This document shows positions 3,795 through 50,734 of a DNA stretch of 64,000 nucleotides, one piece after another. The DNA lies in NCBI RefSeq assembly GCF_900177045.1, contig NZ_LT841358.1, forward strand, positions 389,073 through 453,072, in the 5' to 3' direction. Position 1 is the stretch's first letter. Each line of letters starts with the position of its first letter. The position numbers were made by a program, and so were the translations under genes. The DNA comes from Candidatus Nitrosotalea okcheonensis. Its GTDB lineage: Archaea > Thermoproteota > Nitrososphaeria > Nitrososphaerales > Nitrosopumilaceae. The notes under the pieces are model-generated. The model had not been told where the DNA came from. It did not search any database and saw nothing but the letters and a program-made list of their open reading frames with translations.

Positions 3795-5246
3795 ATGAAT
3801 TTAGGAATTTCAGCCACTGAATTTACGTCTCAGGTAAAGGAAGGTTCTATATCTGTAGAAGAATTTGTTGCAAAAACTCTGGACAGGATTGAAAAAGTCG
3901 ATGAACAGATACATGCCTTCATTACGGTTGACTCACAAAATGCGCTTGAAAAAGCAAGGATACTTGACAAAAAAATAAAGTCTAAAGAAAAAATCGGAAT
4001 TTGTTTTGGCCTGCCAATGTCTGTTAAAGATAACATTTGTACTGCGGGACTAAAAACAACATGTGCCTCAAAAATGCTTGAAAATTTTGTTGCACCATAT
4101 GATGCAACTGTAATTTCTAAACTAAAATCCGAAGATGCCATAATAATTGGAAAGGTAAACCTCGATGAATTTGCAATGGGCTCTACAACTGAATTTAGTC
4201 ACTTTGGTCCAACTAGAAATCCATGGAATATCGGATATGTTCCAGGGGGATCATCTGGAGGAAGTGGTGCATCAGTAGCTGCACTAGAATGTCTTGCCGC
4301 TTTGGGTTCTGATACTGGAGGCTCGGTTCGAAGCCCTGCAAGTTTTTGTTCTGTAGTCGGTTTGAAACCGACATATGGCCTGATAAGCAGGTATGGCCTA
4401 GTCTCATATGCAAACAGCATAGAACAGATAGGTCCTATGGCAAAGACAGTAGAGGATGTAGCGTTTTTACTAAATATCATATCAGGTCATGATATCCATG
4501 ACAATACTACTTCAAAAAATGCGCGTATTGATTATGTCAAGGACTTGAAATCTGGAATTTCTGGAAAGAAGATTGGAATAATTTCACAAATGACTGGAGA
4601 TGGGGTGGACAAGGAAGTAGAGTCTGCAACAAATGATGCGATATCAAAACTACAGGATCTTGGTGCGCAATGCATCCCAGTGTCTCTTGATGCTGTAGAA
4701 CATTCAGTGGCTGCATACTATACAATAGCTGCTGCAGAAGCAAGCAGCAATCTTTCAAGATATGATAATTTGAGATATGGCTTTGATTTTGGCATCGAGG
4801 GATATGAATTCAAGGCGTTTATCTCAAAGGCACGAGGCAATTTTGGACCTGAGGTGGTAAGAAGGATGTTGCTTGGAGCATTTGTCTTGTCTGCGGGATA
4901 TTACGGCAAGTATTACCTCAAGGCTCAAAAAATTCGGGCAATGATAAAGACTCAGCTTGATGAAGCATTCAAGAATGTGGACTATCTAATATCACCTACG
5001 ATGCCCGTATTGCCATTTAAGATTGGCGAAAAAATTGATGACCCGCTAAAACTCTACCTTACTGATATAAACACTGTCACTGCAAACTTGTCTGGAATTC
5101 CTGCCATTTCTATTCCATTTGCAATGTCAAGTTCCGGGTTGCCAATTGGTATTCAGCTATTTGCAAACTCGTTTAAAGAAAAAGAACTACTTCAAGCAGC
5201 GTATGCATTACAAGAAACTACTAAACTCCCGGGGATTACACTATGA
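3795..5246 (+). CDS. gatA: Asp/Glu-tRNA amidotransferase subunit A (amidase)
   Basis: Glutamine amidase subunit of GatCAB (483 residues). It releases ammonia from glutamine and passes it to GatB. The amidase-signature signal is clear: a catalytic Lys in PMSVKDN, the Gly/Ser-rich stretch GGSSGGSGASVA with the cis-Ser, and the nucleophile Ser in GSDTGGSVR. Length and motifs are complete. Its last codons overlap gatB by ATGA (5243-5246). The gene lies in the aspS-gatCAB operon, so the relevant product in this organism is probably Asn-tRNA(Asn). Archaea generally use GatDE for Gln-tRNA, which fits that assignment. Confidence 0.95.
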   Translation: MNLGISATEFTSQVKEGSISVEEFVAKTLDRIEKVDEQIHAFITVDSQNALEKARILDKKIKSKEKIGICFGLPMSVKDNICTAGLKTTCASKMLENFVAPYDATVISKLKSEDAIIIGKVNLDEFAMGSTTEFSHFGPTRNPWNIGYVPGGSSGGSGASVAALECLAALGSDTGGSVRSPASFCSVVGLKPTYGLISRYGLVSYANSIEQIGPMAKTVEDVAFLLNIISGHDIHDNTTSKNARIDYVKDLKSGISGKKIGIISQMTGDGVDKEVESATNDAISKLQDLGAQCIPVSLDAVEHSVAAYYTIAAAEASSNLSRYDNLRYGFDFGIEGYEFKAFISKARGNFGPEVVRRMLLGAFVLSAGYYGKYYLKAQKIRAMIKTQLDEAFKNVDYLISPTMPVLPFKIGEKIDDPLKLYLTDINTVTANLSGIPAISIPFAMSSSGLPIGIQLFANSFKEKELLQAAYALQETTKLPGITL

Positions 5247-6649
5247 CAAAAATAGGCCTTGAGATTCACTGTCAACTTACAAAACTCGCAAGCAAATTAT
5301 TTTGTTCGTGCAAGGCGGAATATAGAAACATTGGACCGAATTCTAACATCTGTCCTGTTTGTATAGGTCTGCCAGGTTCACTTCCCATGTTGAATAAAAA
5401 AGCGGTAGAAAAAGCTGCAATGATATCACTTGCACTAGGCTGCACAATTCCTGAAAAAATTGGATTCTTTAGAAAGAATTACTTTTATCCAGACTTGCCA
5501 AAAAACTTTCAAATTACACAGTATAATGCATATGGTCCTACGAGCATTGGCTCTGGTGGAAAAATCGAGATTGAAGGAAAGACAATCAGGATAAGGCGAA
5601 TACAGCTAGAAGAAGATCCAGGCAGGCTTGTATACGAAGGTACTTCTGAGAAGACAATGATTACGCTAGTTGATTACAATAGGGCAGGTACGCCACTTGT
5701 AGAGATAGTGACAGAGCCTGACTTTGAGACTCCAAAACAAGTCCGTGTGTTCTTGAATGTACTTGCAGATCTAGTTGAAAACATTGGGGTATCTGACCCA
5801 TATCTTGAAGGTGCAATGAGAGTAGACGGAAACATCTCGGAAGGGGATGGAAACAGAGTAGAGATCAAAAATGTGGGCTCTTTTAGAGATATTGAGAAAG
5901 CACTCCATTTTGAAATAACACGCCAGCAGAGCCTTGTTGAAAGAGGAATACAAGTACTGGCAGAAACAAGACACTGGGACGAGGCAAGAAGAATTACAGT
6001 CTCATCCAGATCAAAAGAGGAAGAACAAGACTATAGGTACTTGCCAGAGGCAGACATACCTATTGTTCAAATCGGGAATAATTCTATTGAACAAATAAAA
6101 ACACAAATGCCTGAAAGCATTGTTGGAAGAAGGGAAAGATATGTCAAAAAGTATGGCATGCCTGCACAGGTGGCTGATGTCTTGTCTTCTGATAAATTCT
6201 ACTCTGATCTGTTTGATAAATCTCATAATGAAAAAAATGCAAAGGAGGTATCAAATATCATTACAACTGATCTGATGGGTGTTGCAGACACTAGGGAAAA
6301 GAAAATTGAACTAAAGATTACATCAAAACATCTCTCTGATCTTGCAGATGCTATAATGACAAACAAACTAACAAGAAATTCGGGAAAACTGGCATTGCAC
6401 GAAATGATACAATCTGGAAAATCGCTTGCTGATGTTATGTCAAGTCTTGACTTGGGTCATGTCAGTGATCCTGGTTCTATCGAGAAAATAATCGATGAGG
6501 TGTTCCAAGAGGAAGGAAAAGCAGTGGCAGAAGCAAAACAAAATCCGGATACAATTAACTATCTGGTTGGCAAAGTAATGAGAAAGACAAAAGGCAAGGC
6601 GGATCCTGCTACTACGCTTGATATTTTACGAAAAAGACTTACCATGTGA
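5243..6649 (+). CDS. gatB: Asp/Glu-tRNA amidotransferase subunit B
   Basis: Transamidase subunit of GatCAB (468 residues). It activates the carboxylate of mischarged Asp-tRNA with ATP and amidates it. The N-terminal IGLEIHCQL and the KNYFYPDLPKNFQITQY segment are GatB hallmarks. CSC and CPVC near residues 20-40 form the zinc site. The helical and YqeY-like tail (about 330-468) binds tRNA. Translation is coupled to gatA by ATGA. A run of T-rich sequence follows the stop. Confidence 0.95.
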   Translation: MTKIGLEIHCQLTKLASKLFCSCKAEYRNIGPNSNICPVCIGLPGSLPMLNKKAVEKAAMISLALGCTIPEKIGFFRKNYFYPDLPKNFQITQYNAYGPTSIGSGGKIEIEGKTIRIRRIQLEEDPGRLVYEGTSEKTMITLVDYNRAGTPLVEIVTEPDFETPKQVRVFLNVLADLVENIGVSDPYLEGAMRVDGNISEGDGNRVEIKNVGSFRDIEKALHFEITRQQSLVERGIQVLAETRHWDEARRITVSSRSKEEEQDYRYLPEADIPIVQIGNNSIEQIKTQMPESIVGRRERYVKKYGMPAQVADVLSSDKFYSDLFDKSHNEKNAKEVSNIITTDLMGVADTREKKIELKITSKHLSDLADAIMTNKLTRNSGKLALHEMIQSGKSLADVMSSLDLGHVSDPGSIEKIIDEVFQEEGKAVAEAKQNPDTINYLVGKVMRKTKGKADPATTLDILRKRLTM

Positions 6650-46659: not shown

Positions 46660-49600
46660 CTACTTCCAGAAAAATTGATCCAACCCGGTCTGTTTTGGTT
46701 CCCCAATCAAGCTTGCAAAATCCAAGTCCATTGAAGACAATATTTGGTCAAACGTACTTTCCATAAACTCCATGTATTTCGGAGTATCAATCTCATCCGG
46801 CCTTGCCATCTCGGTAGGCTTTACCCCTGGTTTGTTTATTATCTTGACATATGAAATAATGTCACCTTTTTTTATCTCTCTTGTCTGTTCTAAAAGTTTG
46901 GCAGCTCTGATGTGTTGAGGGATGGTTTTAACATATTCTGCAGGAGCCTTGCTTATCATTACATTGAATGCAAGTTCTACAAGCGGAATCTGCCTTGCCT
47001 TTAATTTTTTTGCATAACTTGATATCATATCACCAATCTTTGTCTTGGACTGGGAGAACTCCTGTTCGTTTTGTACTTGTGACAAGATTTCAAGTATTTC
47101 ATAAAACAGATTTCTAATAAATGGTGGAGTATGTGATTTTTTTCCAGTCAGGCCTTTGACATCTACCTTACCATCTTTTTGTACTCCGAGATAGTTTTTC
47201 TTTCTTTTACTAAATACTACATAACGATATTCCTTGTCTAAATCCAAATCAACTCCAAACTCTGTTTTTGCCCATTCTACTACGCCTTGCACCTGATCTT
47301 GTGATGGAGATTTCAAAAACAATGAATCCGTATTATGTAACAAGACATTGCCTAATCCACCACAAAAATGATGATTCTTTGTTTCCAAATCATACACATA
47401 TCCGCTTATGTTGAATTTTTCAATTTTTTTGATGATATCTGATTGTTTTACTCTCATGGTTTTTTGATCTTTAATTATTTCTAGTCTACATGTGCATGGC
47501 TTGTTTTTTCTTATTTGCAACGAATAGTCCAGTCCTAACTGCTCCAACATGACAATGATTCCAGCAATGACGGTCTTGTGTATTTGATCTATTGTCATTC
47601 CAGTTATGTCGGTATGGTAATCTCTACCCAACATTCCGTTCATGAATGCCCTTTTTGCCTCATTGTTTGCATTCAGTACGGATTGTGGTACTCCCTTGTG
47701 GTCATCGCGATAGCAAAAAAGTCTAAAATAATCCACAAACAGTTTGTGGTTATTCTTTGGAACTAACGCATATGCAGAAGACCTTTTGTGGACACCCTTG
47801 ATGATTGTTTCTAAAGCCAAATGCTCATGTATGATTTTCTGTGCTTTTTGTAATGACTTTTTGTCTTGGTCTACAATTCTCCATGAATATTGAATATGAC
47901 TTTCATGTCTATCTGTATTACATGTGCCTTTTGCAATAAAGAGACCAAATAACCACACTAGATCAGCATTTACATGTAATCTGGATTCTGTTTTAACTGA
48001 AATAAGATTAATTCTGTCTCCCACTTTTAGCTCTGATGGTTTTACATTTTTTCCATTGATGACTAGGCTGTGATCTTCAGTACATTCCACAAATCCCTTT
48101 CTGGTAAGAATTCGATATCCTTTTTTCTTTACCTTGTGTCGGTAGACGTATTTTATTTTTGTAAACCCCTTCTCTGTCAGTACTTCAATGTCTCTAATCT
48201 TGTCATATCTTGTATCGCTTATTGTTTTTGGCATCAGTGTCTCTATTGGAATCAAATCAATCGCCCCGTCTTTTCTGCGAATTGTAATTGGTGTATCTGG
48301 GAGTACGCTGTCTCCGTATAAAACCTCGATTCCAACCGATTTGCATTTTTCAATTGTCTCTAAAATTGTAAACCTCCCAACCGCCGTTGTTGCTTCCGCA
48401 ACCGGCAGGCAATATAATGGAAATATCTCTGCACCCATTACACCATAGCTCGCATTCAAAATGACCTTGAGTGCTTGGCTTACTACTGTGTACAATTGTT
48501 TTTGATTTGCAGAGAGACTTGGATTTTTTGATAAGCTCTTGTAATAGTTTACACGCAGGTCCCTGAGCGAGCCAATTAACATGGCAGTCAGACCGTTTTT
48601 CTTGGTACAAACCCAATGGGTGGTTCCAGGAATCATGTTTTTTTTACATTCGTCATGAATACATCTCACTGTCTCATAGGATAGATTTCTCACCTTGATT
48701 ATGCTGGGGTATAGACTTGCAAAGTCCATTACAGAGACATTGAAATGAATTCCTTCTGTGGGTTCTACTACTAGACCTCCGCGATACTTTTTGTCTTTGA
48801 TAACAGCTTCTGTTGATGCGGTACCTGATTTTTGATCAAGTTCTTCCCGTCGTGGTATCAAATAATTATGTTTTCGATGTTCATAATAAAACAGACTTCG
48901 AATCCATTGGGATACGCCCATTCTCGATATGTCATCAATCGGCATGCGCCCAATTCTTGTTATGACTACAAGAAGATTCATCAACAAATCATTATTAAAA
49001 CTTGTAAGCTTTTGCGTGATTCTTGAATCATTGAAACAATAGTTTCCCAATTCGTAAAGAGAGAGATCTCCCAGTTCTCCCTCATACTCTGTCTTGGATT
49101 CATCAATCAGTCCTTCGCATATTGTGTTCAGTGAAAAATCATTATACCTGTGTGAAAAAGCATAGATTTGAAATGAGCGATTGGAAAATGTTCGGTACAA
49201 GTCAATATGCACGCCTTTCTTAAGAGTTGCAGAATCGCGCATCATCACCAATGGAATTTCCTTTAATGGAACACCTAGTCTTTCTGCTCTGTTGTACATG
49301 AAAGGCATGTCAAATTCATCTCCGTTGAAGGTTATTACAAATGGATAATTTTCCAAGATTTTGAACGCATCTCTTAACATGTCTGCCTCCTTGTCTTCTT
49401 CATAGAAACTGATCTTGACATCCTTTGGAAGCTCATTATTTCCCATCTGTAGTCCTGCCCGTTTTAGGACAAAGACTGTCTTGAAATCATCACTTGCACA
49501 AAACCCTATTGCAGTAATTTTCTTGTCAGCAATTTTAGGATCAGGGATTCTTCCCGTCTCCGATTCTACTTCGATATCAAAGGTAATTCTTCGTATGTTG

Positions 49601-50190
49601 GGCACTGGTTGATTGAGAAGATTTGCCCATTCACTGATGTGGTTTTGAAATTCCTTTGTGTCTATTATTCCAATGTTTGTTATCTTGTCAAACAATAGCC
49701 CTTTTAGCGCAAGCTGGACCTCGTCTGGTATCGGATGTGAATATTCTTTGAGTGCGCCATTTTCAATGGTGTAATATCTGCCTACAATTAACGAATTGTC
49801 ATAAAGATAGTTTTCATAATATTTGATATCTGACTCCCACGTCTCAATGGTGTTCCTTATACTCTTGTCAGTCTGGGTACCACCAATTGCAAGTGGATCT
49901 GCTACTATGATCTTTGTCACGTCAATCATTCGGTCTTTTAGCAAATCTTCTCGCTTGACATTTTCGAGTTTTAATACATCTGTTCTGTTTGACAAGAACG
50001 TCAGTTCCTCTGGGGTGAGTTTGGAATAGCAATATGGTTTATGTCCTGTATTATCGAACCAAAGTTTTAGCGTTTGAGATTTTGGTTCATAAAACTTGAG
50101 CACCGCACATTTTTTTAGGCCATCATATGCTGCCGACACCAATAGTGCCGGTGGCATGGAGGTTGTCACTTCTTCTATTACATTTGACAT
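46660..50190 (-). CDS. polB: DNA polymerase family B, interrupted by an intein
   Basis: Replicative-type polymerase. From the ATG at 50190 the precursor has 1176 residues; removing the 326-residue intein leaves 850, normal for archaeal PolB. The exonuclease motif FDIEVE, polymerase motif A (MDFASLYPSII), motif B (KVILNASYGVMGA) and motif C (YGD/TDS, split by the intein) are intact, then the KKNYLGV region. The C-terminus QTGLDQFFWK is a PCNA-binding box. The frame runs on to an ATG at 50232, but that lies inside the dCMP deaminase gene ending at 50198, so 50190 is chosen. Confidence 0.93.
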   Translation of the reverse strand: MSNVIEEVTTSMPPALLVSAAYDGLKKCAVLKFYEPKSQTLKLWFDNTGHKPYCYSKLTPEELTFLSNRTDVLKLENVKREDLLKDRMIDVTKIIVADPLAIGGTQTDKSIRNTIETWESDIKYYENYLYDNSLIVGRYYTIENGALKEYSHPIPDEVQLALKGLLFDKITNIGIIDTKEFQNHISEWANLLNQPVPNIRRITFDIEVESETGRIPDPKIADKKITAIGFCASDDFKTVFVLKRAGLQMGNNELPKDVKISFYEEDKEADMLRDAFKILENYPFVITFNGDEFDMPFMYNRAERLGVPLKEIPLVMMRDSATLKKGVHIDLYRTFSNRSFQIYAFSHRYNDFSLNTICEGLIDESKTEYEGELGDLSLYELGNYCFNDSRITQKLTSFNNDLLMNLLVVITRIGRMPIDDISRMGVSQWIRSLFYYEHRKHNYLIPRREELDQKSGTASTEAVIKDKKYRGGLVVEPTEGIHFNVSVMDFASLYPSIIKVRNLSYETVRCIHDECKKNMIPGTTHWVCTKKNGLTAMLIGSLRDLRVNYYKSLSKNPSLSANQKQLYTVVSQALKVILNASYGVMGAEIFPLYCLPVAEATTAVGRFTILETIEKCKSVGIEVLYGDSVLPDTPITIRRKDGAIDLIPIETLMPKTISDTRYDKIRDIEVLTEKGFTKIKYVYRHKVKKKGYRILTRKGFVECTEDHSLVINGKNVKPSELKVGDRINLISVKTESRLHVNADLVWLFGLFIAKGTCNTDRHESHIQYSWRIVDQDKKSLQKAQKIIHEHLALETIIKGVHKRSSAYALVPKNNHKLFVDYFRLFCYRDDHKGVPQSVLNANNEAKRAFMNGMLGRDYHTDITGMTIDQIHKTVIAGIIVMLEQLGLDYSLQIRKNKPCTCRLEIIKDQKTMRVKQSDIIKKIEKFNISGYVYDLETKNHHFCGGLGNVLLHNTDSLFLKSPSQDQVQGVVEWAKTEFGVDLDLDKEYRYVVFSKRKKNYLGVQKDGKVDVKGLTGKKSHTPPFIRNLFYEILEILSQVQNEQEFSQSKTKIGDMISSYAKKLKARQIPLVELAFNVMISKAPAEYVKTIPQHIRAAKLLEQTREIKKGDIISYVKIINKPGVKPTEMARPDEIDTPKYMEFMESTFDQILSSMDLDFASLIGEPKQTGLDQFFWK
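47332..48309 (-). mobile_element. Intein in PolB motif C, with degenerate LAGLIDADG domain
   Basis: The insertion begins with Ser (SVLPDTPITI, block A) directly after YGD and ends VLLHN (block G) before TDS, so splicing would restore YGDTDS. Block B is CTEDHSL with the conserved His, and block F is SGYVYDLETKNHHF. Between them are two worn homing-endonuclease dodecapeptides: LFGLFIAKG, where the acidic residue is Lys, and FMNGMLGRD, where the catalytic position is also altered. Protein splicing looks intact and the nuclease probably dead. Confidence 0.92.
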
Positions 50191-50197
50191 GGTTCCA

Positions 50198-50734
50198 TCA
50201 CTTTGGCGTAAGATTGGCGTCTGGCTCTTCAAGGAGAACCTTTATCCAATGATTTATCCTGCTCTTGTCCAAAATCACTACTTCTAACCCAGCTTCATGT
50301 AATAATTCATAATCCGTCTCAGGATAATTCCCAAGGCAGACTATTTTTTTAATCCCGATTGTGATTGCCATCTTGCTACACTCTAAACATGTGATAAATG
50401 TGGTATACAAGGTAGAATTTTTGGTCCCAGAGCCTACCCCGAGTATAGCACAATGCATTATGGCATTTGCTTCAGCATGGTTGCATAGGCACCTGTCAAG
50501 ACCTTCACCTGATGCAACTTTGCCTTCCATTCGAAGTTGGCATCTTTTACAGCCTCCCTCGAAGCAATTTTTTACCCCCGGAGGCGTCCCATTATAGCCT
50601 GTGGCAATCTGTCTGTTTTCTCGTACAATTACTGCTCCAACTTGTCTTGTAATGCAATTTGATCGTAATTTTGCTAATTCTGCCTGGAGCATAAAATACT
50701 CGTCCCATGTAGGACGGTCAAATGACTTGTTCAT
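50198..50734 (-). CDS. dCMP deaminase family protein (ComEB-like)
   Basis: Zinc deaminase of 178 residues. The active site is HAEANAI with the downstream CLEC pair, and RPTWDEYFMLQAELAKLRS opens the protein as in dCMP deaminases. CFEGGCKRCQ adds the second, structural Cys cluster of the dCMP/ComEB group. It likely supplies dUMP for thymidylate. It lies 8 nt upstream of polB on the same strand, so nucleotide supply and replication are probably co-expressed. Confidence 0.9.
   Translation of the reverse strand: MNKSFDRPTWDEYFMLQAELAKLRSNCITRQVGAVIVRENRQIATGYNGTPPGVKNCFEGGCKRCQLRMEGKVASGEGLDRCLCNHAEANAIMHCAILGVGSGTKNSTLYTTFITCLECSKMAITIGIKKIVCLGNYPETDYELLHEAGLEVVILDKSRINHWIKVLLEEPDANLTPK

Follow-up and report, generated by a model that had tools for sequence, protein, structure and literature searches.

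The polB gene of Candidatus Nitrosotalea okcheonensis is interrupted, within the catalytic motif of the polymerase, by an intein with a LAGLIDADG endonuclease domain. Can this domain still drive homing, and if it cannot, how has the intein been kept? The DNA analysed, here called the window, is a stretch of 64,000 nucleotides (contig NZ_LT841358.1, positions 389,073 to 453,072). Our best overall explanation, to which we give a probability of roughly 85%, is a pol-c intein that is dead for homing, still splices, and is inherited vertically in a clade formed by the window species and its two closest species (genomes G028 and G033).

The intein and its host polymerase

The host gene and the splicing elements are located as follows:

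46660..50232, minus strand: polB precursor (PolB1-type family-B DNA polymerase), 1190 aa from a TTG start
48310..50232, minus strand: N-extein, ending in ...VLYGD
46660..47331, minus strand: C-extein, starting with TDS..., stop codon included
47332..48309, minus strand: intein, 326 aa, 37.6 kDa, inserted at YGD/TDS (the pol-c site)
48307..48309, minus strand: Ser1, the N-terminal splicing nucleophile, invariant
48070..48084, minus strand: block B CTEDH (C76-H80), with T77-E-D-H80 and the catalytic His80
47332..47337, minus strand: His325-Asn326, the C-terminal splicing residues (block G)
47329..47331, minus strand: Thr+1 of the C-extein, the second nucleophile

The insert is a genuine pol-c intein. 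It has Ser1, a TxxH in block B, a terminal HN and Thr+1, and lies in frame in a conserved protein, as in class 1 HINT domains. The Pfam model Intein_splicing matches it at 2.5e-9, over the cut-off; likewise, the NCBIfam models for the N- and C-terminal parts of inteins score above theirs. The in-frame 978-bp insert recurs at exactly the same polB site in about 20 relatives, so it is not a product of chance. Its splicing residues are invariant in the full-length relatives and are also kept in the degenerate and mini-inteins at this site. The original prediction had placed an intein of 37 kDa at these coordinates, with 326 residues splitting YGD from TDS and with Ser1, the His of CTEDH, the terminal HN and Thr+1; all of these are present, and the predicted mass agrees with the computed one. 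The same YGD/TDS insertion point is used by the pol-c (position III) inteins of archaeal PolB and Mimivirus PolB (PMC549080). Compared with those, the window intein is hosted by a thaumarchaeal PolB1, not a PolB3 (PMC4104785), is shorter (326 versus 537 aa) and has Lys in place of the first catalytic acid.

The polB open reading frame matches NCBIfam PRK05761.1-3 with 1137 bits, and we class its product as PolB1 because PolB1 is present and PolB3 absent in Thaumarchaeota (PMC4104785). The true start is likely the ATG at 50190 (residue 15), which is the start used by most relatives. Counted from this ATG, the spliced polymerase has the 850 residues originally predicted, whereas the TTG-started frame gives 864 aa. 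No other PF00136 gene occurs in the whole Nitrosotalea genome (1.97 Mb, one contig), and the extein is strongly constrained, with an omega of 0.039 after the catalytic loss described below and 0.036 on other branches (here as throughout, omega was estimated with a purpose-written branch codon model). Because polB is single-copy and its extein remained under such constraint, splicing presumably must work, as had been predicted. To judge from the sequence, the intein is most likely spliced efficiently; as a class-1 (Ser1 ... HN/T+1) pol-c intein of an archaeal PolB1, it would by post-translational splicing restore YGDTDS, the catalytic motif C of the polymerase. The description of the host as 'the replicative polymerase' is not supported: the genome also encodes a PolD large subunit, and in Thermococcus kodakarensis the presence of PolD allows polB to be removed with no delay in growth (PMC6759347). 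As a label for PolB1 beside PolD, essential or sole replicase is unproven.

One of the two closest relatives also has a second family-B polymerase fragment, 45-53% identical (G028:C215:4-1482), possibly contamination or the polymerase of a mobile element.

The endonuclease domain and its catalytic acids

Five features define the state of the endonuclease:

47455..47985, minus strand: LAGLIDADG endonuclease domain, residues 109-285 (weak Pfam Hom_end match; profile, AlphaFold and Foldseek)
47929..47967, minus strand: first LAGLIDADG helix, residues 115-127 (AlphaFold model)
47929..47931, minus strand: Lys127, replacing the catalytic Glu at the position of PI-SceI D218 (alignments)
47629..47664, minus strand: second LAGLIDADG helix, residues 216-227 (AlphaFold model)
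47617..47625, minus strand: R229-D230-Y231, with Asp230 kept and the flanking glycines lost (alignments)

The domain has the two helices and the pseudo-symmetric arrangement of the LAGLIDADG fold. Profile matches are to PI-PkoII, TliVMA and PI-SceI, and the nearest folds found by Foldseek are those of PI-PkoII, TliVMA, PI-PfuI, PI-SceI and I-DmoI, with an E of 7e-15 for the match to 2cw7. PI-PkoII, the endonuclease of the KOD polymerase intein, is closest in both profile and fold. The AlphaFold (AF2) model of the intein has a mean pLDDT of 80.5, with residues 230-237, D230 included, below 50.

In intact relatives, the first helix closes with the consensus F-[IV]-[AS]-E-G, and the second motif reads G-[MI]-[LM]-[DE]-G-D-G; the window has FIAKG (within GLFIAKG) and GMLGRDY. 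Profile alignment equates position 127 with D218 of PI-SceI and position 230 with D326, both of which are critical for PI-SceI activity (PMC1508164). Position 127, Glu in the eight intact relatives, is Lys in the window. D230 aligns with the D of DGDG as well as with D326; lost around it are D228, G229 (G229R) and G231 (G231Y). The original prediction that both helices had lost their acid thus stands for the first (E127K) and fails for the second, since GMLGRD aligns with GMLDGDG; alignment to the intact relatives and to PI-SceI rules out loss of both. A catalytic Asp or Glu in the correct place had been named as the observation that would overturn the prediction, and here the result is mixed, with D230 at the D326 position, in a segment modelled at low confidence, and a non-acidic residue at 127.

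E127K and G229R are common to the window, G028 and G033, and G231 is also lost in the latter two. As the two changes occur in three independently assembled genomes, with the frame intact in all, an artefact of sequencing or alignment was rejected and is extremely improbable; we found no support for it beyond the low model confidence of the block E loop.

TliVMA and PI-SceI share the fold and both LAGLIDADG helices with the window intein, and have both acids; they are active or probably active (PMC8966425, PMC1508164), while the window lacks the first acid. A closer precedent is the VMA intein of Pyrococcus horikoshii (PhoVMA), a 'degenerated HEN' that likewise kept the LAGLIDADG fold through a catalytic loss (PMC8966425). 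In PhoVMA both active-site acids are gone, one through a deletion within block E, whereas in the window one is substituted and one kept; the host genes also differ. Together with the yeast VMA series considered below, PhoVMA is the closest precedent.

With D230 in place, residual nicking or DNA binding may persist. One could go further and suppose that the endonuclease is still active or nicking, with another acid standing in for E127 and selection reflecting continued homing. The retained D230 and the empty target sites in close relatives are compatible with this idea; the charge reversal at an essential acid and the loss of both flanking glycines speak against it, and with the evidence on selection and descent given below we regard it as unlikely.

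Selection after the catalytic loss

The eight intact inteins agree with one another at 82 endonuclease sites. The window intein departs from them at 19 of these, the intein of G028 at 12 and that of G033 at 15; nine sites are altered in all three. At invariant sites of the splicing domain, each of the three has 4 changes in 89; the excess in the endonuclease is significant for the window (Fisher p=5e-4). Intact inteins scored in the same way have 0-5 changes, except for the most divergent, G225, which has 16. The reversal of charge at the acid, together with the 19 changed sites, bears out the prediction that the intein probably cannot home: as far as alignment can tell, homing is probably dead.

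The omega of the endonuclease domain is 0.10 on other branches and 0.21 after the loss (roughly 0.14-0.31 from the likelihood profile). Selection has thus relaxed significantly (p=0.001) but is far from absent, with neutrality rejected at p=1e-14; the result is unchanged on the host-like topology. In the splicing domain, omega went from 0.06 to 0.13 after the loss. The endonuclease domain is therefore relaxed without being free to decay. Neutral decay is rejected, and the prediction's term 'worn-out' is not supported if it is taken to mean free decay.

For a functionless domain, an omega of 0.21 after the loss is low, and this counts against our best explanation. If judged on dS/dN as PRP8 inteins were (PMC1508164), the window endonuclease would pass as active or recently active, and the rejection of neutrality is what a still active endonuclease would lead one to expect; the 19 changed sites and the relaxation itself weigh on the other side. 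In the yeast VMA inteins, which like the pol-c series are homologues sharing one site, some with an active endonuclease and some with a dead one (PMC1508164), dead domains are sometimes near neutral (dS/dN 0.67, one pair), as compared with a dN/dS near 0.2 for the dead domain of the window.

Two known explanations fit the constraint: the insert must stay foldable and compatible with splicing, or splicing depends on the HEN domain (PMC8966425). The first belongs to our best explanation, by which a misfolded insert of 180 residues would most likely hinder splicing of the sole family-B polymerase, leaving the endonuclease fold under residual, relaxed purifying selection. The second leads to a different reading, in which the inactive endonuclease has been domesticated, either because splicing depends on the domain (HEN-HINT mutualism) or because the polymerase has gained a conditional switch in the intein. 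The constraint remaining after catalytic loss is in keeping with this, as is the finding that some inteins, for example TliVMA, splice less well once the HEN domain is deleted (PMC8966425). On the other hand, mini-inteins of 248-276 aa (G244-G246) show that the domain can be nearly lost at this site, and many close relatives have no intein, which leaves no essential regulatory role for it in the genus. We treat domestication as a tentative possibility with well under an even chance; its mutualism half is the weaker half and overlaps with our best explanation. Taken as a complete account, in which selection retains a dead domain needed for or tuning splicing, vertically kept and possibly a condition-sensitive PolB switch, it appears quite improbable.

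Our preferred reading of a homing-dead, still-splicing intein can be set out as a sequence of events. The source would have been a LAGLIDADG homing intein that moves between related ammonia-oxidising archaea, Nitrosotalea and Nitrosotenuis included. Its copy in the common ancestor of the window species, G028 and G033 presumably lost a metal-binding acid (E127K) together with the glycines flanking the second acid; this most likely put an end to double-strand cleavage and so to homing, and since then the element would have been passed on with the chromosome. This is a late stage of the homing cycle, of a well-known kind.

Descent and alleles at the pol-c site

As proposed, polB of close relatives was compared for presence or absence of the intein and for intact LAGLIDADG residues. 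Of 33 assessable Nitrosotalea genomes, 10 carry the intein and 23 are empty, and eight full-length relatives are intact at E127 and D230. The extein tree requires at least five gains or losses of the intein among 16 close species. Extein and rpoB trees agree on the host relations, with window,(G028,G033) as sister to G016 (occupied) plus G022 (empty), and inside the window clade the intein tree has the same topology. In this clade, dS is 0.55-0.59 for the intein and 0.41-0.44 for the extein, values close enough to be as expected for vertical descent; such a match also argues against a still active endonuclease. The trees use one genome per species, and this test spans three species. Within them, the intein is inherited with its host.

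Beyond the clade, the intein tree joins the window clade to G019/G021 (support 97/96) instead of to G016, its sister among the hosts. An intein tree constrained to the host arrangement is rejected (AU p=0.015), and genus-wide vertical inheritance was accordingly discarded; monophyly of Nitrosotalea inteins alone is not rejected (AU p=0.41). Inside clades, the intein has a dN 4-5 times that of the extein, while between genera intein dN is similar to or less than extein dN (0.107 vs 0.136 for G001-G239), which points to transfer of the intein between genera. A closely similar intein is also found in G297, from another family of the order. Of the original description 'fixed, vertically kept', the vertical keeping is thus supported for the window, G028 and G033, where trees and dS agree; for the rest of the family, in which the intein is patchy and mobile, the description is not supported. 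A scan of IMG/VR with the intein, made with a viral donor in mind, found no relative.

The alleles at this one site form a series. Both motifs are intact in eight inteins (G016, G019, G021, G001, G239, G219, G222 and G225) and in a mixed contig of G009. The first acid is lost in the window, G028 and G033 (Lys) and independently in G297 (Gly); the second is lost in G228 (DGN) and G217 (deletion). In the inteins of G023 (L010) and G057 (L049), of 316 and 336 aa, the splicing blocks are kept, the LAGLIDADG motifs are unrecognisable and the endonuclease is heavily scrambled, although these inteins are almost full length. Endonuclease remnants are also unrecognisable in the mini-inteins of G244-G246, at the same site. 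The homing cycle described in PMC3229294 and PMC1654191 is visible here at a single site in one archaeal family, as empty alleles, intact inteins, at least three independent catalytic losses, near-unrecognisable endonucleases and mini-inteins. The pol-c series is a good natural set for asking how long, and why, a dead endonuclease stays constrained. In the literature searched, we found no paper on inteins in Nitrosotalea.

The mixed contig, L073 (Nitrosotalea sp. FS, G009), has at 4107-5981 an empty YGDTDS polB, then pieces of an intein with intact motifs, runs of N and the same C-extein start. It represents either a misassembly or a population in which empty and occupied alleles coexist, and as such was left out of the intein trees. 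The G024 assembly breaks inside the intein, and that of G029 just past the empty site. In an Asgard MAG (Thorarchaeota archaeon BC, L074), this polB site holds an intein of similar length class with 37% identity, with GG at the second acid, which is apparently lost.

Other inteins were met in the relatives. In two genomes of a Nitrosotenuis-like genus, g16 (G223 and G214; L149 and L150), a different intein (Cys1...GN/S) lies in PolB motif A, at DFA/SLYPS, with intact-looking LAGLIDADG motifs (GRFLGDG and KGLMDSDG); their YGDTDS site is empty, so that PolB1 of this one family has a second site of insertion. G297 (L152, L136) has a 1589-aa PolB frame with two inteins, one N-terminal (WE/CYD...CGN/SDIKYHENY) and the pol-c intein whose independent loss of the first acid reads FIAGG. 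Five Nitrosotalea relatives (G243, G018, G017, G007 and G025; L053-L057) carry an intein in the Walker A motif of an SNF2-type helicase-like protein (DEMGLGK/C...HN/T), whose identity to the PolB intein is only about 21%.
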